Origin: Halogeometricum limi
GTDB taxonomy: Archaea > Halobacteriota > Halobacteria > Halobacteriales > Haloferacaceae
DNA: 64,000 nt
Direction: 5' to 3'
NCBI RefSeq assembly: GCF_900115785.1
Contig: NZ_FOYS01000001.1
Coordinates: forward strand, 310,001 to 374,000
Made by a program: the position numbers and the translations under genes. The notes beneath the pieces were generated by a model. That model ran no database searches. It worked only from the letters and a program-made list of their open reading frames with translations, and was not told the DNA's origin. This document shows, in pieces, positions 18,953-31,689 of the stretch; positions within the stretch are counted from its first letter, which is position 1; each line of letters begins with the position of its first letter.

Positions 18953-21900
18953 ATGGCGCAGGCCCCGCAGGACCCGGACGTGGACCTCACCGAACGGTTC
19001 ATACAGTTCTACAGGAAGTACTACAGCGACGACATCGGTCGACTCGCGCAGCGATATCCGAACGAACAGCGGTCGTTGTACGTCGACTACGACGACCTGT
19101 TCCGCTTCGACGAGGACTTAGCGGAGGACTATCGGAAGAAACCCGACCAGATACGCGAGTACGCCGAGGAGGCGCTTCGACTGTACGACCTCCCGGTGGA
19201 CGTGAAACTCGGGCGGGCGCACGTCCGTCTCCGAAACCTCCCGGAGTCGGTCGACATCCGCAACATCCGCGTCCACGACGACCACATCGGACGGATGGTC
19301 TCCGTGCAGGGTATCGTCCGGAAGGCGACGGACGTGCGCCCGAAGATTACGGAGGCGGCGTTCGAGTGCCAACGCTGCGGGACGATGACGTACATCCCGC
19401 AGACCGACAGCGGGTTCCAGGAACCGCACGAGTGTCAGGGCTGTGAGCGACAGGGACCGTTCCACGTCGACTTCGACCAGTCCGAGTTCGTCGACTCGCA
19501 GAAACTGCGCGTCCAAGAGAGCCCCGAGGGCCTGCGGGGCGGCGAGACGCCGCAGAGCATCGACATCGACGTCGAAGACGACATCACCGGCCGGGTGACA
19601 GCGGGCGACCACGTCGTCGTCACGGGCGTCCTCCACATCGAACAGCAGACGTCCGGACAGGAGAAGACGCCCATCTTCGACCTCTACATGGACGGGGTAG
19701 CCATCGAGATAGAGGACGAGGAGTTCGAGGACATGGACATCTCCGAGGAGGACGTCGCCGAAATCGTCGAACTCTCGAACGAGGAGGACATCTACGACAT
19801 GATGGTCGGGTCCGTCGCCCCGTCCATCTACGGCTACGAACAGGAGAAACTCGCGATGATTCTCCAACTGTTCTCGGGCGTGACGAAGCACCTGCCCGAC
19901 GGGTCTCGGATTCGCGGCGACCTGCACATGCTGTTGATAGGGGACCCGGGAACAGGGAAGAGCCAGATGTTGTCATATATCAGACATATCGCGCCTCGGT
20001 CGGTGTACACGTCGGGGAAGGGGTCCTCCTCGGCGGGTCTCTGCGTGACGGGCGATACCCGAATTCACACCGAAGACGGGTTCCGCGAGATACGCGACCT
20101 CGCTCTCGACGACCATCCCGACCCGGTCTCTGCGGACGAGAGCGCGGAGAAGCGGGTCGGACTCCAGACGTTCGACAGAACCACGGGAACGATGGCCGAG
20201 AGGCAGTCGTCTCACGTCTGGCGGATGCCGAAGAAACCGTGTCGACGCATCGAGACCGCACACGGAAAGGGGCTGACGACGTCGGAGAACACTCCCGTCT
20301 TGACGTGTGGCGAGCACGGACTGGAGTGGGTCGACGCATCCGACGTCGAACCCGGACAGTACGTCGCCGTCCCGAAGTACGGTGACCTCGACCGGTCGGA
20401 AGTCCCCGTCAGGACGTTCCTCGAACTCACGACAGAGAAGGTGAGGCTGGCGGACGATTCCGTCGAACGTCTCCGCAGTGCGCTCTGTGACCGATTCGGA
20501 CACCTGCGCGCCGCGGCGTCGGAACTGGACCTCTCGGAGGACTTCGTCTACGACTCGCTTCGGAACCGCCACGTCCCACTCTCGAAACTCGACCGCATTC
20601 TCGACGCCGTCGAGTTGACCCGCGACGACGTCGACTTCGACCGAGCGATGCTCCGTCACGGAGACAGTATCGCCCTTCCGGAGACGTTCGACGAAGACCT
20701 CATGTACCTCCTCGGGTTGGTCTTCGGCGATGGCGACATCTCGCTCGACCGACGCGGCGGCAACCGCGGGCTGGTCCGTCTCTCCAACGGCGACGAAGCG
20801 CTGTTAGCGCGGGCGCAAACTATCTTCGCGGACAAGTTCGACAAGCGCCCGGAGATAGAACGCCAAGAGGGTCGGGTGCCGTGTATCCGCGTGAACAGTG
20901 CGACTATCGCACGCCTGTTCGCGAACGCCGGGATGCAGACGCCGAAAGTCGGTCTCGAACTCGCATCCGAACTGACGACCGCCGCCCACGCCGACGCGTT
21001 CCTCCGCGGATTCATGGACGCCGACGGTTCGGTTTCGGCCCGCGACGGCGGCGGGTCGAGCGTCCTCGTCTCGACGATCAGCGAATCGCTCGCCGAACAG
21101 GTGCAGTTGATGCTGGAGACGTACGGCGTCCGCGCGCGCCGACGCGAACGTGACCGTCGGGGGACGTACGAACTCGAAGACGGGCGGACCATCGAGTCGA
21201 AACACGTCCAGCACTTCGTCGAGATGTACGGCGCGAACATCGAGCGATACGCGGCCGAGATCGGATTCGATGTCGAAGCGAAACGAGAGGCGCTCGGACG
21301 GATCACGAACGACGCGAAGCGGCGAGAGGAGCGTGTTCCAGTCGGGTCCGCGCTGCTCGCGACCGACGGCGCGGGTGGCGACTACCACACCAACGTCACC
21401 CGCGACGACGATCCGGGGCGCGGACGGGCGAGAGAGATCATCGAAACCGTCGACCTCGGACCCGCGGACGCCGACGTTCGCGAAGTCGTCGAGGCGGACC
21501 TCCGCTGGGACCGGGTCGTGGACACGGAGTCTGTCGGCGAGAAAGAAGTGTTCGACCTGACGGTGCCCGAGACGCACAACTTCGTCGGCAACGGTATCGT
21601 GACCCACAACACGGCCGCCGCGGTTCGCGACGACTTCGGCGACGGCCAGCAGTGGACGCTCGAAGCCGGTGCTCTCGTCCTCGCGGACAAGGGCATCGCC
21701 GCGGTGGACGAGTTGGACAAGATGCGCTGTGTGACCGGTGAGACGCTCGTCCATCTCGCCGACGGACGCGTCGTCCGTATCGGCGAACTCGCTCACGAAG
21801 CGAGTGAGGCGGGAGCGGTCGAGGCGCTTCCCAACGGTCGGACGATTCGCGACGTCGACGCCGAGGCGTGGACGATGACCGAGGACGGGCGAGTCGTCGA

Positions 21901-24592
21901 ACGGCCCGTCACGGCCATCCACGAGTACGACGCGCCGGACGACCTGACGCAGGTGACGCTCCAGTCCGGCGAGCGCCTGACCGCGGTTCACGACCACCCG
22001 TTCTTCGTCTTCGAAGACGGAGAGCGCGTGGAGAAACCCGCAACGGACGTCGCTCCCGGTGAATGGGTGTACGTCCCGCGACACCTCTCGCAGCGGGCGA
22101 CGGACGGCGGCGTCGCGGCCGCCGACTCGCCGGTCGAGACGAACGACTCGACGGCTTCCGCAGACGGCGTCGACGAGAGCGACGCGCTCTCGCCAGCGTT
22201 CGGGGCGGTCCTCGGCTACCTCTCTGGTGACGGAAACGTCTACTACGACCGCGAGGCGGGCGTCTACGGCGTTCGGTTCACAAACAAAGAAGAACAACTG
22301 CTCTCGGACTTCGAGCGGGCCTGTCGTGACGCGTTCGACGCGACACCGATTCGCCCGTCGAGCGAGAAGCGAAACGACGGCGTCGAGACCGTCCGACTTC
22401 CCGGACGCGAGTACGCAGACGCCGTGGTCGACGCGGGCATGAACCTCGAAGTCTACGACGAGAAGGCGTTCCCGACCGCCGTCTCGGCGTCGTCGACGGC
22501 GACGAAGGCCGCGTTCGTTCGCGCGATGGCCGACAGCGAGGGCACCGTCGACACGGACACCGGCAACGTGAAAATCAGTTCGTCGAGCTACGAACTCCTC
22601 GCGGGCATCAAGAGCCTCCTCTTGGAGTTCGACGTGACGACGCAGATTCAGCACCGCGAACGAGACGGCAAGCGCGACCTGTTCGTGCTCGCGATTACGG
22701 CCGCGGACTCGCTTCGACGGTTCGAACACCACGTCGGATTCACGCTCTCTCGGAAGCAGTCCGCGCTGGAAGCGGTCTGTGAATCCGCCTCCGGCGACCG
22801 AACCGTCCTCGATGTGATACCGAACTGCGGCCCGCTACTGTCGTCGCTCCGAGACTCGCTCCGCCTGTACGTTTCGGAGTGCGGGCTCGCCGACGCCACG
22901 TACTGCAACTTCGAGAACGGCGACGCGAACGTCTCGCTCTCGTGCGCCCGAACGATACTCCGCGCGTTCGAGCACAGAGCATCGCGGGCCGAGTCGGACG
23001 CGGCGTCGCTCGCGACGTCGTGTGGTTGGGAGACGCTCTCGACGCTCCGCGAACGGTACCACGTCTCTCAGTCCGAACTGGCGAACGGAACGACGTTCAG
23101 CCAGCAACAGGTCTCGAACGGGTGGGGAACGAGCGACGCGCTCCAGACGGTCGTGACCGACCGACTCCACGAGATTATCGAGTCGGTCGCCGCGACGAAC
23201 CTCGAACCGTTCGAACAGCTCGTCCGAGGCGACGTCAAGTGGCGACGAGTGGAGTCCGTCGAGACGGTCGACTCCGAGTACGCAGACGACCGGATTGGAG
23301 TCCTGACGCACGAACTCGCCGACCACCTCGGTGTCGAGACGGACGCCGCCGTCGCACGTGCTCGGACGCTCCTCGACACTGAGCCATCGGCGGAGGAGTG
23401 GGGCGAACTCCGCGCGGAACTGGAGCGACACGGCGTCTCGTTCGCCGACGTCGCACGTGACCTCGATGTCGCGGCTTCGACCGTCTCTCGGTGGTTCAAC
23501 GGCGTCGTCGAGACGGACCGATTCGACGACGTCGCTGCCGTGGCGCTCGCCCGAATCTCGACCGTCCGGAGCGAGGTTCGACGGTTGCTCGACGCAATCG
23601 AGTCGCGTTCGGAGGCGAAAGTCTACGACCTCACCGTCGAGGGGACGCACAACTTCGTCGCCAACGGGATGGTCGTCCACAACTCCGAGGACCGCTCTGC
23701 GATGCACGAGGCGCTGGAGCAACAGCAGATTTCGGTGTCGAAGGCCGGTATCAACGCGACGCTGAAGTCCAGATGTTCGCTGCTCGGCGCGGCGAACCCC
23801 AAGTACGGACGGTTCGACCAGTACGAACCCATCGGCGAGCAGATAGACCTCGAACCCGCGCTCATTTCGCGGTTCGACCTCATCTTCACGGTGACGGACG
23901 ACCCGGACCCCGAGACGGACGCCGCACTCGCGGACCACATCCTCAACACGAACTACGCGGGAGAACTGCACACCCAGCGGACGAAGATAGCCAACTCCGA
24001 GTTCACCGAGGAGGAGGTGAACTCGGTCACAGAAGAGGTCGCGCCCGCCATCGACGCGGAACTTCTGCGCAAGTACATCGCCTACTCGAAGCGCAACTGC
24101 TACCCGACGATGACCGACGAGGCAAAGCAAATCATCCGCGACTTCTACGTCAACTTCCGCGCGAAGGGGGCCGACGACGACTCTCCGGTCCCCGTGACGG
24201 CCCGGAAACTCGAAGCGCTCGTACGTCTCTCCGAGGCCTCTGCGAGAGTCCGCCTCTCTGACAAGGTGATGGAGGAAGACGCCGTCCGCGTCACCAACAT
24301 CGTCGAGTCCTGCCTGCGCGACATCGGGATGGACCCCGAGACGGGCGAGTTCGACGCCGACATCGTCGAGACGGGCACCTCGAAGAACCAGCGCGACCGC
24401 ATCAAGAACCTCAAACAGCTCATCAGCGACATCGAAGACGAGTACGAGGAGGGCGCGCCAGTCGAGGAGGTCATCGCCCGCGCGACGACCGACCTCAACT
24501 TAGACGAGACCAAGGCCGAACAGGAGATAGAGAACCTCCGCCGGAAGGGCGAGGTGTACGAACCGCGGACGGACCACCTGCGGACGACGTAG
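18953..24592 (+). CDS. mcm: Replicative DNA helicase MCM, interrupted by two in-frame inteins
   Basis: A 1,879-residue precursor; removing the inteins leaves 704 residues, the normal archaeal MCM length. MCM is the hexameric 3'-5' helicase of the replication fork. The N-terminal part has an OB fold and a zinc site (CQRCGTM ... CQGCER, about 139-164). Walker A GDPGTGKS is near residue 330, Walker B IAAVDELDKM lies in the 39-residue stretch between the inteins, and the sensor/arginine-finger region (GAANPKYGRF; ISRFDLIF) follows intein 2. A winged-helix tail closes the protein. Helicase activity requires both splicing events because Walker A and B are on separate extein pieces. Confidence 0.97.
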   Translation: MAQAPQDPDVDLTERFIQFYRKYYSDDIGRLAQRYPNEQRSLYVDYDDLFRFDEDLAEDYRKKPDQIREYAEEALRLYDLPVDVKLGRAHVRLRNLPESVDIRNIRVHDDHIGRMVSVQGIVRKATDVRPKITEAAFECQRCGTMTYIPQTDSGFQEPHECQGCERQGPFHVDFDQSEFVDSQKLRVQESPEGLRGGETPQSIDIDVEDDITGRVTAGDHVVVTGVLHIEQQTSGQEKTPIFDLYMDGVAIEIEDEEFEDMDISEEDVAEIVELSNEEDIYDMMVGSVAPSIYGYEQEKLAMILQLFSGVTKHLPDGSRIRGDLHMLLIGDPGTGKSQMLSYIRHIAPRSVYTSGKGSSSAGLCVTGDTRIHTEDGFREIRDLALDDHPDPVSADESAEKRVGLQTFDRTTGTMAERQSSHVWRMPKKPCRRIETAHGKGLTTSENTPVLTCGEHGLEWVDASDVEPGQYVAVPKYGDLDRSEVPVRTFLELTTEKVRLADDSVERLRSALCDRFGHLRAAASELDLSEDFVYDSLRNRHVPLSKLDRILDAVELTRDDVDFDRAMLRHGDSIALPETFDEDLMYLLGLVFGDGDISLDRRGGNRGLVRLSNGDEALLARAQTIFADKFDKRPEIERQEGRVPCIRVNSATIARLFANAGMQTPKVGLELASELTTAAHADAFLRGFMDADGSVSARDGGGSSVLVSTISESLAEQVQLMLETYGVRARRRERDRRGTYELEDGRTIESKHVQHFVEMYGANIERYAAEIGFDVEAKREALGRITNDAKRREERVPVGSALLATDGAGGDYHTNVTRDDDPGRGRAREIIETVDLGPADADVREVVEADLRWDRVVDTESVGEKEVFDLTVPETHNFVGNGIVTHNTAAAVRDDFGDGQQWTLEAGALVLADKGIAAVDELDKMRCVTGETLVHLADGRVVRIGELAHEASEAGAVEALPNGRTIRDVDAEAWTMTEDGRVVERPVTAIHEYDAPDDLTQVTLQSGERLTAVHDHPFFVFEDGERVEKPATDVAPGEWVYVPRHLSQRATDGGVAAADSPVETNDSTASADGVDESDALSPAFGAVLGYLSGDGNVYYDREAGVYGVRFTNKEEQLLSDFERACRDAFDATPIRPSSEKRNDGVETVRLPGREYADAVVDAGMNLEVYDEKAFPTAVSASSTATKAAFVRAMADSEGTVDTDTGNVKISSSSYELLAGIKSLLLEFDVTTQIQHRERDGKRDLFVLAITAADSLRRFEHHVGFTLSRKQSALEAVCESASGDRTVLDVIPNCGPLLSSLRDSLRLYVSECGLADATYCNFENGDANVSLSCARTILRAFEHRASRAESDAASLATSCGWETLSTLRERYHVSQSELANGTTFSQQQVSNGWGTSDALQTVVTDRLHEIIESVAATNLEPFEQLVRGDVKWRRVESVETVDSEYADDRIGVLTHELADHLGVETDAAVARARTLLDTEPSAEEWGELRAELERHGVSFADVARDLDVAASTVSRWFNGVVETDRFDDVAAVALARISTVRSEVRRLLDAIESRSEAKVYDLTVEGTHNFVANGMVVHNSEDRSAMHEALEQQQISVSKAGINATLKSRCSLLGAANPKYGRFDQYEPIGEQIDLEPALISRFDLIFTVTDDPDPETDAALADHILNTNYAGELHTQRTKIANSEFTEEEVNSVTEEVAPAIDAELLRKYIAYSKRNCYPTMTDEAKQIIRDFYVNFRAKGADDDSPVPVTARKLEALVRLSEASARVRLSDKVMEEDAVRVTNIVESCLRDIGMDPETGEFDADIVETGTSKNQRDRIKNLKQLISDIEDEYEEGAPVEEVIARATTDLNLDETKAEQEIENLRRKGEVYEPRTDHLRTT
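20042..21610 (+). mobile_element. Intein 1 in MCM (523 residues, LAGLIDADG homing endonuclease)
   Basis: Inserted after SSSAGL just downstream of Walker A. It begins with Cys (CVTGDTRIHTEDGF) and ends VGNGIVTHN before Thr+1 of the extein. Block B is GLTTSENTPVLTCGEHG. The endonuclease motifs LLGLVFGDGDISL and LRGFMDADGSVSA keep both acidic catalytic residues, so homing may still be active. Block F is KEVFDLTVPETHNFV. All splicing residues (Cys1, TxxH-type position, His-Asn end, Thr+1) look functional. Confidence 0.95.
21728..23683 (+). mobile_element. Intein 2 in MCM (652 residues, LAGLIDADG endonuclease plus HTH insertions)
   Basis: Inserted directly after DELDKMR, the Walker B segment. It begins CVTGETLVHLADGRV and ends VANGMVVHN before Ser+1. 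Block B is RLTAVHDHPFFVF; endonuclease motifs are VLGYLSGDGNVYY and VRAMADSEGTVDT. It is long because of two extra regions: a haloarchaeal-type segment with VSQSELANGTTFSQQQVSNGWG, and an insertion at 23263-23617 that splits block F between VKWRRVESVE and KVYDLTVEG and contains an HTH-like FADVARDLDVAASTVSRW. Confidence 0.95.
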
Positions 24593-26060: not shown

Positions 26061-26345
26061 ATGGACCGAATCTCCGCGCTTCGCAACGTCGAAGACGCCC
26101 TCCGTGACTTCGAGTCCGGCGAGTCCGACCTCGCCGCGACGGAACAACGCGTCGTGACTGTCCTCAGAACGTACGCCACCGACTTCGAGGGTGCGGACGG
26201 ACTCGCGCCCTATCAGGCGACGGGCGAGGGCCGCGCACACGGCCTCGTCGTCGTCGCAGCGAACGAGACGGACGCACGCCAGAAGGTCCACGACTTGCTC
26301 GAGGAAGAACGAGGCACCCTCGACTTCGACGTCGGTCGTCTGTAG
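26061..26345 (+). CDS. Unknown haloarchaeal protein, first gene of the MinD-linked run
   Basis: A 94-residue acidic protein (MDRISALRNVEDALRDFESGESDLAATEQRVVTVLRTYATDFEG). It looks alpha/beta with a C-terminal strand, AHGLVVVAANETDARQKVHDLL. I know no function. It is followed after 63 nt by four genes in the same direction ending in minD, an arrangement I remember as recurrent in haloarchaea. A short hairpin at 26365-26379 separates it from the next gene. Confidence 0.7.
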   Translation: MDRISALRNVEDALRDFESGESDLAATEQRVVTVLRTYATDFEGADGLAPYQATGEGRAHGLVVVAANETDARQKVHDLLEEERGTLDFDVGRL

Positions 26346-26364
26346 CCTCTACGACACGATTCTC

Positions 26365-26383
26365 GTCTCTCCGAGAGACTTTT
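26365..26383 (+). terminator. Hairpin followed by a T run between two genes of the MinD-linked run
   Basis: GTCTCT (26365-26370) and AGAGAC (26374-26379) form a 6-bp stem with a 3-nt loop, followed by TTTT. It may attenuate transcription between the 94-residue gene and the rest of the run, or be a chance structure. Confidence 0.35.
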
Positions 26384-26408
26384 GCCGACACGTGAACGTC
26401 GTCTCGCC

Positions 26409-26747
26409 GTGTTGCTCGTCGTGACCTACTCGCGGGCCGCCCGTGAGACGCTCCGAAACGTCTGCCGAACGCACGAAGAGACGGTCGTCCGGAGGTTCGG
26501 GCGGGCCGCGCTCCTCGAAGAGACGGAGTTCGGCGCGTTCCTCGCGTGTCGGCTCCGCGAGAAGCACGCACACGACGTGCAGGTCCAGCGAACCGAACCG
26601 TTCAACGAGTTCGCGAACGTGCCCGAGGCGGTACGCGAGGCGGCGACGGCGTACGAGTCGCGCGCGACGCCGAGTACGCCGTACGACAAGTTCGCGGCCG
26701 GGACGGACCACCCCCGGTCGTCGACGATGCGTGACAGAGAGCTGTGA
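26409..26747 (+). CDS. Unknown haloarchaeal protein in the MinD-linked run
   Basis: A 112-residue protein, probably starting at the GTG at 26409 (LLVVTYSRAARETLRNVCRTHEETVVRRFGRAALLEETEFGAF). An Arg-rich N-terminal helix is followed by a mixed region ending TAYESRATPSTPYDKFAAGTDHP. No catalytic motif recognised. Its stop overlaps the next GTG start by four bases (GTGA at 26744-26747), so the two are translationally coupled. Confidence 0.7.
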   Translation: MLLVVTYSRAARETLRNVCRTHEETVVRRFGRAALLEETEFGAFLACRLREKHAHDVQVQRTEPFNEFANVPEAVREAATAYESRATPSTPYDKFAAGTDHPRSSTMRDREL

Positions 26748-27619
26748 CGACGGTTCGCGTCCGTCTTCCCGACGGAACGGCGCACGTCGGGCGCGTCGTC
26801 GACCTTCGAGACGTCGAGCGGTCGGGGGACGCTGCGACGGTTCGCCGGTCGATTCGTTCGGGCTTTCCTCTAGAACCCGACGTGCCCCGCGTCTACTGCC
26901 CCGCACCGACGCGGTGTCACCGGTTCGCGGACCTGCTCTCTCGGGAGATGTCGTTCGACCGGTACGGTGCGCTGGCGACGCTCGCTCGGACACGCGGTCA
27001 CACCGCTTCCGAAGAGCGGACGCTCGCACACGTTCGAGACGAGTTGGCGGAGACGGCGGCACCGGCGCCCGAAGACCTGACGACGGCCCGTCGTCGGGCG
27101 GCCGAGGCCGGTGCGGAGACCGAGCGTCTCCGTGAACGCGCCGCGACGATTCGCGGCCGTCTGGAGGCGACCAGAGACGCCGGGGCGGACGCGGAAGCGG
27201 TCGAACGGGAACTCGAAGAGACGATGCGACGGCTCTCGGAGGTGGCGACAGAGCGCGTCGCCGCCCGACAGCGTCTCGACGTGCAGGAGACGCAGGCGCG
27301 GGCCGCGCGCGACAGTCGGGAACGACGGATGCGACTCGAAGACCGAATCGCGAACCTTCGGCGGACGATTCGGCGGTCGCTCGCGGAGACGGTCTACGAG
27401 GAGTTCGGCGGGGCCGTGACCGCACTCCCCGACGCGTTCGACGCCGACGCGGGCGACGAACCCGGCGGGTACGACGGCGAACCCGTCGCCGCCGCACTCG
27501 CGTTCGCCCGCGTCGCGCCGCTTCGTGCACCCGTCGTGGTCGAGGCCACCGTCGCCGAACGGTTCGAGAACGCTGCGACTCTCGCGCGATACCTCCGCGG
27601 ACCACTCGTCGTCTGCTGA
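26744..27619 (+). CDS. Coiled-coil protein in the MinD-linked run
   Basis: A 291-residue protein with three parts: an N-terminal globular region (about 1-85) with a VYCPAPTRCHRFADLLS segment, a long charged coiled coil (about 90-215; EAGAETERLRERAATIRGR through ERRMRLEDRIANLRR), and a C-terminal alpha/beta part (VAAALAFARVAPLRAPVVVEA). I do not recognise a function. Coiled-coil partners are typical for MinD/ParA systems (MinE, MinC, MCD-type activators), so a MinD1-interacting role is plausible by context only. Confidence 0.75.
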   Translation: MTTVRVRLPDGTAHVGRVVDLRDVERSGDAATVRRSIRSGFPLEPDVPRVYCPAPTRCHRFADLLSREMSFDRYGALATLARTRGHTASEERTLAHVRDELAETAAPAPEDLTTARRRAAEAGAETERLRERAATIRGRLEATRDAGADAEAVERELEETMRRLSEVATERVAARQRLDVQETQARAARDSRERRMRLEDRIANLRRTIRRSLAETVYEEFGGAVTALPDAFDADAGDEPGGYDGEPVAAALAFARVAPLRAPVVVEATVAERFENAATLARYLRGPLVVC

Positions 27620-27665
27620 CTCCCGGTCCCTCTTCTTTATCCGTCATCGCGCGGCCAGACCGCGC

Positions 27666-28445
27666 ATGGAGTACGACTGTACGACGGACGTCGCCGCCGG
27701 AACGACGCTGGTGACGGTTCGCGTCCGCAACGACGCCGCCGTCGACCGCCGAGTGAGCGTGCGAAACACACTCTCCGGACCGGTGCTTCCGCCGCGACGT
27801 GAAGGCGTTCCCGAACGCGGGTGGGACGAGGAGGGGTTCGTCGGCGTCGTCGACGCGGAGAGCGAACGAACGTTCGGGTACGCCTGTCCCGTCGTCGAAG
27901 CGTGTGCGGACCCCGTCTCGGTCGAGTCCCTCGGCCGCGTGGACGGCGAGTCGGGGACCGACCTCGAAGCCGCGGCGGTTCGACGGTTGGGCCGGGCGCG
28001 CCCGCCCGCCGACGCGGTGCCGACATCTGCCGACGCCGTACCGGCGTCCGGCGACGCGGTACCGACGCGTGATTCGAACGCCGACCGGTGCGTTCCCGAC
28101 CGAGAGTCTCGACGGCACGACGACGCCGAGAGCGACGCGGCGACGGTCGACGAGTTCGCGGAGTCGCCCTCGGCGAATCGCGCCTCCGAACGCGTCGACC
28201 CGGTCGAGTCGTGGCTCGCGAACGTCGAGTCGCGCGCCGCGCGGGCGGAACGACTGACGGACGCGACTGCCGCCGACGCGGCCGCCGTGTTAGAGACCGA
28301 CGCGGATATCTCGGCCCTCCCGGCCGCCGTCGACGCCGACGAGGCGGCGCTTCGGTCGTTCGCCCGACGGGCTACCGCTCTCGCCGACAGACTCGCCGAG
28401 ACGGACCCCGAACCCGCCGTCGACGCCCTCGCGGAGGCGCTGTGA
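27666..28445 (+). CDS. Unknown haloarchaeal protein coupled to MinD
   Basis: A 259-residue very acidic protein. The first 80 or so residues form a beta-rich domain (MEYDCTTDVAAGTTLVTVRVRNDA ... RVSVRNTLSGPVLPP). A Pro/Ala/Asp linker holds a short imperfect repeat, ADAVPTS-ADAVPAS-GDAVPTR (about 117-137). The C-terminal 90 residues are helical (WLANVESRAARAERLTD). Its stop overlaps the minD GTG by four bases (28442-28445). The coupling suggests that it acts with MinD; no biochemical function is known to me. Confidence 0.75.
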   Translation: MEYDCTTDVAAGTTLVTVRVRNDAAVDRRVSVRNTLSGPVLPPRREGVPERGWDEEGFVGVVDAESERTFGYACPVVEACADPVSVESLGRVDGESGTDLEAAAVRRLGRARPPADAVPTSADAVPASGDAVPTRDSNADRCVPDRESRRHDDAESDAATVDEFAESPSANRASERVDPVESWLANVESRAARAERLTDATAADAAAVLETDADISALPAAVDADEAALRSFARRATALADRLAETDPEPAVDALAEAL

Positions 28446-29107
28446 TACTCGCGGTGACGGGCGGGAAAGGCGGCGTCGGCAAGTCGACGCTCTCTTTCGA
28501 ACTCGGCGCGGCGCTGGACGCCGTCGTCGTCGACGCGGACGTCGGCATGGCCGACCTGCCGACCGGACCGGGACCCGACCTCCACGACGTCCTCGGCGGC
28601 CGCGCCGACGCCGTCGAAGCCGTGCGCGAGGGCGGACCGGTGCGACTTCTCCCGTGCGGTCGCTCGCTCGCCGGTGCCCGCGCCGCCGACGTCCGACGGT
28701 TGGGCGAGGCCCTCCGCGCGGTCGAAGCGGCCTACGACACCGTCGTCGTCGACTGCCCCGCCGGGATGAGAGCGGACGCGGGCGTCCCACTCGCGGCCGC
28801 CGACGCCTGCGTCGTCGTCGCCTCGCCGCAGGAGTACGCCCTCGCCGACGCCGTCCGAACGCGCGAGTTGGCGCGCGAACTCGACGCCGGCCTCGTCGCC
28901 GTCGCGGTCAACCGCGTCGTCGGCGACGCACCCGAGGCCGTGTTCGAGGACGTTCTCGGCGCACCCGTCGTCAGCGTCCCCACCGACCCGCGGGTCGGCC
29001 GCGCCGTCGAGACGGGTCGTCCCGTCTGCCGCGTCGCTCCGACCAGTCGCGCCGGACGAGCGGTCTCGTCGCTCGCGCGTGCGGTCGACCGTTGCTCGAC
29101 GGTCTGA
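28442..29107 (+). CDS. minD: MinD/ParA-family ATPase
   Basis: A 221-residue deviant-Walker ATPase. The P-loop GGKGGVGKST has both signature Lys9 and Lys14; switch I is VVVDADVGMADL and Walker B is TVVVDCPAG. Such proteins dimerise with ATP and position cargo on membranes or the nucleoid. No C-terminal amphipathic membrane helix is obvious. GTG start overlaps the upstream stop codon. From memory it corresponds to one of the four MinD homologues of H. volcanii (MinD1); these influence positioning of archaella or chemosensory arrays rather than of FtsZ. Confidence 0.9.
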   Translation: MILAVTGGKGGVGKSTLSFELGAALDAVVVDADVGMADLPTGPGPDLHDVLGGRADAVEAVREGGPVRLLPCGRSLAGARAADVRRLGEALRAVEAAYDTVVVDCPAGMRADAGVPLAAADACVVVASPQEYALADAVRTRELARELDAGLVAVAVNRVVGDAPEAVFEDVLGAPVVSVPTDPRVGRAVETGRPVCRVAPTSRAGRAVSSLARAVDRCSTV

Positions 29108-30861: not shown

Positions 30862-31689
30862 TTACTTCACGTAGCGCTCGACGCCGGAGAGGAGTCCACC
30901 GCGGCCGAACGCCGCCCCCACGTCTCGGCCGACTGTCGCGGCGACGAGTTCGACCACGCCCTCGGTGAACGCGCCGTCGCCGCCCACGCAGGCCGGGACC
31001 GAACGCGGGTCTTCGACGCCCGATTCGGGCAGTTCGCAGTCGGCGGCCTCGAACGACCCGCGCGTGGCGACGACGACGTCGGCCTCGCTCCCGACGTGTG
31101 CGAGGCGGGTCCGCATCCGCTGTGCGGCGTCCGCGCCGCGCGTCGTCCCCGGCGCGACGAGGACGACGCGGTCGGCGGCGTTCACGGCCGCGACGGCCTG
31201 ATTCGCGGCTATCGGGGGCGCGTCGACGAGCACGTAGTCGAAGCGGTTCGCCGCGTCGGCGAGGCGCGATTCGAGCCGTCTCGCGGCGTCGGGCGTCTTC
31301 GCGCGCGCGAATCGCTCGAACGGCGCGAACGTCGGGCAGGCGACGACGCGACCCTCGACTTCCCAGTCGAGCGTCGTCAACCCCTCCGAGAGGGGGGCGT
31401 CTGACGCGTCGGTGAGGAGGGCGGTCAGGTCCGTGGCTAGCTGTCCGTCGACGTGGGCCGCGACGCCCTGTGTCGCGAACGCGGCGTCGAACACGGCGAT
31501 GTCAGCACCGTCGACGGCGAGGGCCGCGGCGACTTCGAGCGTGCTTCGCGTCGTCCCCGCACCGCCCGTCGCGCCGACGAAGGTGACGACGGTTGGCTCT
31601 CCCGTTCGCCCGTCGCCGACGTCGTCGACGTCTGCGCCTTCGCTGTCTCCCGTGGTACCCTCGCTCGCTTCGGTGTCGGTCGCGTCCAT
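30862..31689 (-). CDS. MinD/ParA-like protein with a lysine-less P-loop
   Basis: A 275-residue protein of the MinD/ParA fold with a 30-residue acidic N-terminal tail. The P-loop reads VGATGGAGTTRST (38-50): Thr41 and Thr46 replace the two lysines that bind and hydrolyse ATP in MinD. Switch I (VFDAAFATQGVAAHVDG) and Walker B (YVLVDAPPIAANQ) remain recognisable. It resembles CpaE-like or pseudo-ATPase members that bind nucleotide weakly or act as partners of active MinD. The true MinD lies 1.8 kb away. Start ATG at 31687-31689. Confidence 0.85.
   Translation of the reverse strand: MDATDTEASEGTTGDSEGADVDDVGDGRTGEPTVVTFVGATGGAGTTRSTLEVAAALAVDGADIAVFDAAFATQGVAAHVDGQLATDLTALLTDASDAPLSEGLTTLDWEVEGRVVACPTFAPFERFARAKTPDAARRLESRLADAANRFDYVLVDAPPIAANQAVAAVNAADRVVLVAPGTTRGADAAQRMRTRLAHVGSEADVVVATRGSFEAADCELPESGVEDPRSVPACVGGDGAFTEGVVELVAATVGRDVGAAFGRGGLLSGVERYVK

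Follow-up and report, generated by a model that had tools for sequence, protein, structure and literature searches.

DUF7857 and the MinD1 ATPase of Halobacteria: a gene pair that tracks one type IV pilus

The window analysed here is a stretch of 64,000 nucleotides from Halogeometricum limi (contig NZ_FOYS01000001.1, positions 310,001 to 374,000), and the subject of this work is a run of five genes within it, in which four genes lead into a MinD-type ATPase, called MinD1 below (Table 1). All four were assigned by profile match to existing Pfam families of unknown function, DUF7854-DUF7857, and the DUF7857 protein of the window passes its gathering cut-off of 27 bits. The last two genes, DUF7857 and MinD1, are one genetic unit; its presence, loss and copy number and, in one clade, also its location follow those of a particular type IV pilus machine. 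Both are kept or lost with that pilus, which suggests that they place or control it and gives MinD1 a testable job.

The initial annotation had described genes of 94, 112, 291 and 259 residues, with two four-base start/stop overlaps, as a compact run coupled to an intact MinD. The coordinates and sizes were verified, as were the two GTGA overlaps (28442-28445 and, between DUF7855 and DUF7856, 26744-26747), and the motif GGKGGVGKST is present in MinD1. The neighbours matched DUF7854-DUF7857 only, in agreement with the claim that the partners do not resemble MinE or MinC. PDB profile searches with DUF7854, DUF7855, DUF7856 and DUF7857 gave no significant match, and DUF7854-7858 and DUF7125 are nowhere mentioned in the papers searched. 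The run is flanked upstream by a pyridoxal phosphate-type enzyme (-) and by an MCM helicase gene (18953-24592; 1879 aa) with two apparent inteins, and downstream of MinD1 by TFB (-), DUF7858 (+) and a ParA-like protein (30862-31689, -) in which both P-loop lysines are missing (GATGGAGTTRST).

Table 1. Positions of the genes and sequence signals of the run in the window
Feature	Position	Strand	Remarks
DUF7854 protein, 94 aa	26061..26345	+	PF25252, 126 bits; neighbour outside the core pair, probably its own unit
A/T-rich promoter-like box of DUF7855-DUF7856	26374..26384	+	about -35..-26 before DUF7855; conserved in 56 loci
DUF7855 protein, 112 aa, GTG start	26409..26747	+	PF25253, 200.9 bits
DUF7856 coiled-coil protein, 291 aa, GTG start	26744..27619	+	PF25254, 275.7 bits; not an obligate MinD1 partner
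TATA-like box of the DUF7857-MinD1 unit	27636..27640	+	A/T 79-89% at each of -30..-26, 73 loci
DUF7857 protein, 259 aa, proposed MinD1 adaptor	27666..28445	+	PF25256, 122.9 bits
GTGA overlap, DUF7857 stop / MinD1 start	28442..28445	+	exactly 4 bases in 61/63 loci
MinD1 ATPase, 221 aa, GTG start	28442..29107	+	clade of 70 DUF7857-paired MinDs; nearest PDB entry 1hyq
Deviant Walker A GGKGGVGKST of MinD1	28460..28489	+	from the sequence

The regions 5' of each start were aligned, using 43-73 loci per gene. A sharp A/T box, TTTAWA, precedes DUF7857, and no A/T box was seen in these alignments 5' of DUF7856 or of MinD. The two gaps in the run, 63 bp before DUF7855 and 46 bp before DUF7857, each hold a TATA-like box. 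Because these boxes are conserved and the genes are lost separately, the run was split, and it probably consists of three transcription units, DUF7854, DUF7855-DUF7856 and DUF7857-MinD. The last two are coupled pairs, each with a predicted promoter, since the boxes are found only before their first genes. The genes and overlaps of the initial annotation are confirmed, and a single obligate unit of five genes is ruled out by the separate losses, the unlinking of the genes and the separate promoter-like boxes.

The product of the first gene of the other pair, DUF7855, has no known function or fold and is strikingly conserved, with a mean column identity of 62% in 20 diverse sequences, compared with 41% in DUF7856 and 31% in the DUF7857 core. 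AlphaFold2 (AF2) gave no usable model of DUF7855 (predicted local distance difference test score, pLDDT, 48).

The distribution of the genes was surveyed in 194 Halobacteria genomes. Of these, 146 have DUF7857, 123 have DUF7855 and 119 have DUF7856. Since the three families are widespread and the DUF7857-MinD overlap is nearly invariant in length, the arrangement is not due to chance. DUF7857 is spread over 49 of the 65 genera of Halobacteria; the initial annotation had named confinement of the gene run to a single genus as speaking against its proposal. In a comparison across the wider phylum DUF7857 was detected in 22 of 30 Halobacteria, as against one sub-threshold match among 147 other genomes, and it is essentially absent outside this class. 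The idea of a system specific to haloarchaea therefore holds for the DUF7857 partner, but not for the four genes as one MinD system.

MinD1, scored as a match to the MinD of the window at E<=1e-40, was present in 142 genomes. DUF7857 was also found in 141 of these, and the remaining genome, G129, was positive with our own DUF7857 profile. In a tree of 128 MinD-like proteins, made by a quick method, all 70 MinDs that follow DUF7857 formed one clade (Shimodaira-Hasegawa-like approximate likelihood-ratio test support 97), separate from the clades of the lysine-less ParA-like proteins (40) and of the MinD-DUF7125 fusions (16). The lysine-less protein had been suggested as a further partner; it belongs to this separate clade and persists in G182 and G100, which have no DUF7857-MinD1 pair, so it is not an obligate one. 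It lies next to DUF7858 and TFB and is probably a non-hydrolysing paralog.

The gene order is kept in most genera, but the pair is not bound to the rest of the run. It is unlinked from DUF7855-DUF7856 in G013, G065, G097, G193, G136 and G142, and it occurs without DUF7856 in 31 genomes, namely in family f4, from which DUF7856 is absent, and in a few others. The two genes still stand together where they have left this locus, and they are nearly always lost jointly: some genomes, G182, G054 and G100 among them, have neither DUF7857 nor MinD1 any longer. A subclade of 18 MinD1 proteins has left the MCM locus; most adjoin a MinD-DUF7125 fusion, often together with two TrkA_C-type membrane proteins, and their DUF7857 is shortened to about 120 aa. 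The MCM locus is probably the ancestral place of the pair, because G057 and G137, two f4 genomes which still have the pair there, branch at the base of the moved subclade. The fusion protein, about 425 aa with a KaiC-like DUF7125 part, was seen beside the moved pair at L050:4958-6229 (+) and at 15 similar loci. Taken together, DUF7857 and MinD1 very probably form one functional unit.

The presence of this unit was compared with that of a pilus operon. DUF7857 and PilB agreed in 189 of the 194 genomes, being both present in 143 and both missing in 46, and were discordant in 5 (phi 0.93), with G129 scored as present and the DUF7857 remnant of G191 scored as absent. For MinD1 the values were slightly lower: 139 both, 46 neither and 9 discordant with PilB, and 140, 45 and 9 with DUF7311 (phi 0.88 in each case). 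The closer agreement of DUF7857 is as expected if it is the cargo-facing member of the pair. The archaellum was also considered as cargo and was ruled out, the phi of MinD1 with the archaellum marker PF04659 being 0.12; with rhodopsin (PF01036), an unrelated accessory control, it was 0.04. When f4 and the moved genomes were removed, so that the loci were unlinked, phi was 0.82. Permutation within genera gave p 0.001 for PilB, and it was not significant for the archaellum and rhodopsin controls (p about 0.5).

Single genomes follow the same pattern. Two DUF7857 pairs occur in G058, G141 and G160 only, and it is in these three alone that PilB is doubled and DUF7311 has two strong copies. G125 has lost PilB, its DUF7311 is broken by a stop and it lacks the pair, and G191, which has no such pilus, retains DUF7857 only as a remnant. 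Among 54 genomes that were checked, those without an intact DUF7311 have only distant PilB paralogs (about 30-35% identity, in the ATPase core), and G182 has none; since distant paralogs remain, it is the specific machine that is missing and not all pili. The pair and the pilus loci are typically hundreds of kb apart, and in the genome of the window the operon DUF7310-DUF7311-PilB-PilC-DUF7283-DUF7285-DUF7284-DUF7286 lies about 537 kb from the pair. In 23 genomes the pair is within 20 kb of DUF7311, and the moved pair stands beside genes for a HerA-like ATPase, the coiled-coil DUF7310, DUF7311, a T2SSE ATPase (PilB) and a TadC-type PilC. The result also shows a unit of ATPase and proposed adaptor whose evolution is separate from that of its probable cargo operon, although presence and copy number still bind the two.

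The pilus itself matches the halobacterial subclade 4F in two features. Makarova 2016 (PMC4858521) describes for 4F a Cys-rich N-terminus of the ATPase and an intracellular coiled-coil protein. An N-terminal CxC was seen in 22 of the 24 PilB rows examined, and the coiled-coil DUF7310, which would correspond to arCOG07564, is encoded upstream of DUF7311-PilB-PilC. The PilB3 system was considered as the identity of the pilus and dropped in favour of subclade 4F, because the ATPase carries Cys at its N-terminus, the operon has a coiled-coil gene and the genomes have other PilB paralogs as well.

A cetZ gene lies near DUF7310-DUF7311-PilB-PilC in 11 of 20 pilus loci examined, which links a tubulin-like cytoskeletal protein with the pilus. 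In the genome of the window it is divergent and just upstream of the operon (L091:7753-8838, -); the others are L092, L093, L094, L096, L100, L103, L104, L105, L106 and L110.

The MinD of the window is a diverged member of the MinD/ParA superfamily which, judged by its score, falls outside TIGR01969: it reached 140.8 bits with this archaeal MinD model, under the curated cut-off of 201.75. In the PDB search its nearest solved structure was the archaeal MinD 1hyq (E 8.5e-28), and its relatives there include the FlhG/FleN type, 4rz2 (E 7.6e-11) and 5j1j (E 4.4e-10). A conserved amphipathic tail of the membrane-targeting kind was not seen at the C-terminus of the paired MinDs on inspection by eye. 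The protein is probably the ortholog of Haloferax MinD1 (HVO_0225), because the H. volcanii MCM is HVO_0220 (PMC3972481), which leaves four genes between the two, and because H. volcanii is positive for DUF7855, DUF7856 and DUF7857. Gene order predicts HVO_0224 as the DUF7857 gene of that species. H. volcanii has four MinDs; according to papers from 2024 the functions of MinD1-3 are undescribed and no MinE-like partner is known (PMC11621097, PMC11588486). Deletion of all four minD genes left growth and division unaffected (PMC11588486), and the swimming of the quadruple mutant resembles that of the minD2/4 mutant (PMC11621097, PMC11588486).

The AF2 model of DUF7857, of low depth (3 sequences, pLDDT 57.6), predicts an N-terminal beta-sandwich, a disordered linker and C-terminal helices, and in Foldseek it weakly matched immunoglobulin-like (Ig-like) and major sperm protein-type sandwiches. 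The conserved core GPvwPPRr.Gvp..gWd is located in the sandwich, and the short forms of the protein keep the sandwich alone. ParA/MinD ATPases generally reach their cargo through very diverse partner proteins (PMC10241942). At somewhat less than even odds, DUF7857 represents a novel type of adaptor for ParA/MinD proteins, an Ig-like sandwich in the cytoplasm whose translation is coupled to that of its ATPase, and MinD1-DUF7857 would be the first positioning system in archaea devoted to a type IV pilus other than the archaellum.

We propose, with a probability of roughly 0.6, that DUF7857-MinD1 is a two-gene unit of the ParA/MinD type, an ATPase with its own adaptor, which has the DUF7310-DUF7311-PilB-PilC pilus as its cargo and sets the place or number of the machines. 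That the pair serves this pilus is likely; that its role is spatial positioning is a more guarded suggestion, which falls somewhat short of an even chance. In the proposed mechanism ATP-bound MinD1 dimers would bind the membrane or another surface, the beta-sandwich of DUF7857 would link them to the PilB/PilC platform or to its coiled-coil protein, and DUF7857 would trigger ATP hydrolysis by MinD1. In this way the pair would fix the sites or the number of the pilus machines that are built, in the manner of CpaE/TadZ for Tad pili and FlhG/FleN for flagella. The physical contact, the ATPase stimulation, the spatial role and this division of labour are all inferred. FleN/MinD-type ATPases were predicted by Makarova 2016 (PMC4858521) to serve archaeal type IV pili generally.

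Several observations weigh against the proposal. MinD1 has been lost from four genomes of genus g33, in which the pilus and a diverged form of DUF7857 remain; three of their loci (L045, L046 and L080, in G036, G037 and G099) represent a natural separation of adaptor and ATPase. The mirror-tree comparison of evolutionary distances gave no excess signal for DUF7857 and MinD1 (partial r 0.08). PilB occurs without the pair in G100 and G189, and the pair without a PilB match in G045, G121 and G183, of which G121 is an assembly in 70 contigs that keeps a weak DUF7311 match and G183 is 93% complete. The relocation to the neighbourhood of the pilus operon amounts in essence to a single event plus transfers. 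Finally, correlations of presence do not separate positioning from control of expression or assembly.

This last point bears on the strongest rival explanation, although we consider it unlikely: that DUF7857-MinD1 controls expression or assembly of the pilus and not its place. It might act as a checkpoint licensing PilB, for instance, or bind a regulator, as FleN does with FleQ. The co-occurrence with PilB suits this reading just as well, the PDB relatives of MinD1 include FleN, and the moved pair adjoins the regulatory-looking MinD-DUF7125 ATPase and TrkA_C membrane proteins; but DUF7857 has no DNA-binding domain, and most appendage-linked ParA/MinD ATPases govern placement at least in part. 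Less probable still is a single positioning system made up of all of DUF7854-DUF7857 together with MinD1, as the initial annotation had suggested; the coiled-coil DUF7856 would then be its scaffold, and f4 would have a reduced version. Outside f4 DUF7855-DUF7856 track PilB too (phi of DUF7856 with DUF7311 0.73), but this correlation is inflated by deletion of the whole block; likewise the conserved gene order and the correlated distances of DUF7856 and DUF7857 (partial r 0.43) have to be set against the separate promoter-like boxes and the genomes in which the pair is unlinked or lacks DUF7856. That MinD1 serves another cargo (the chromosome, a chemotaxis array or cell shape via CetZ) and shares only its ecology with the pilus is quite improbable, for although the locus adjoins MCM, CetZ1 localisation is affected by MinD2 and MinD4 (PMC11621097) and cetZ flanks many pilus loci, the archaellum and rhodopsin controls indicate that accessory traits are not generally correlated, the copy number and the moves of the pair also go with the pilus, and in H. 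volcanii growth and division are unaffected by the quadruple minD deletion (PMC11588486).

A positioning or assembly role, as the initial annotation had supposed, is the best reading of the pair; that first reading is partly supported, being right in kind, too wide in membership and without a cargo. With the present result, MinD1 has both a probable cargo and a probable adaptor. Its predicted phenotype would lie in pili and surface adhesion, which explains why assays of motility and division would miss both.

Among known systems, bacterial MinCDE shares the MinD fold and the deviant Walker A with MinD1, but no MinC or MinE is found among the neighbours and there is no link to division. FlhG/FleN proteins are structural relatives that also control a surface appendage; however, their partners are FlhF and proteins of the FleQ/FlrA type, none of which was found among the neighbours at the window locus. 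The FleN/MinD ATPases of arCOG00589 are likewise MinD-like and predicted as general regulators of archaeal type IV pili, but the main text of Makarova 2016 (PMC4858521) neither assigns MinD1 to 4F nor names a DUF7857-like partner. Haloferax MinD4 (HVO_0322) and MinD2 (HVO_0595) are haloarchaeal MinD paralogs that act on surface machines, and MinD2 likewise has a small co-encoded gene of unknown function beside it, HVO_0596, the deletion of which gave no phenotype (PMC11588486); they act on archaella and chemotaxis, whereas MinD1 tracks a type IV pilus and not archaella. Compared with CpaE/TadZ, MinD1 has no N-terminal receiver-like domain before its ATPase domain, since its P-loop begins at residue 7 of 221 aa; in most genomes its gene lies at a distance from the pilus operon, and its proposed haloarchaeal adaptor has no known counterpart in Tad systems. 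What they have in common is a MinD-fold ATPase tied to a pilus machine of the TadA/TadC type, with a proposed role in placing it, and DUF7857-MinD1 is best read as working like bacterial TadZ/CpaE without being one.

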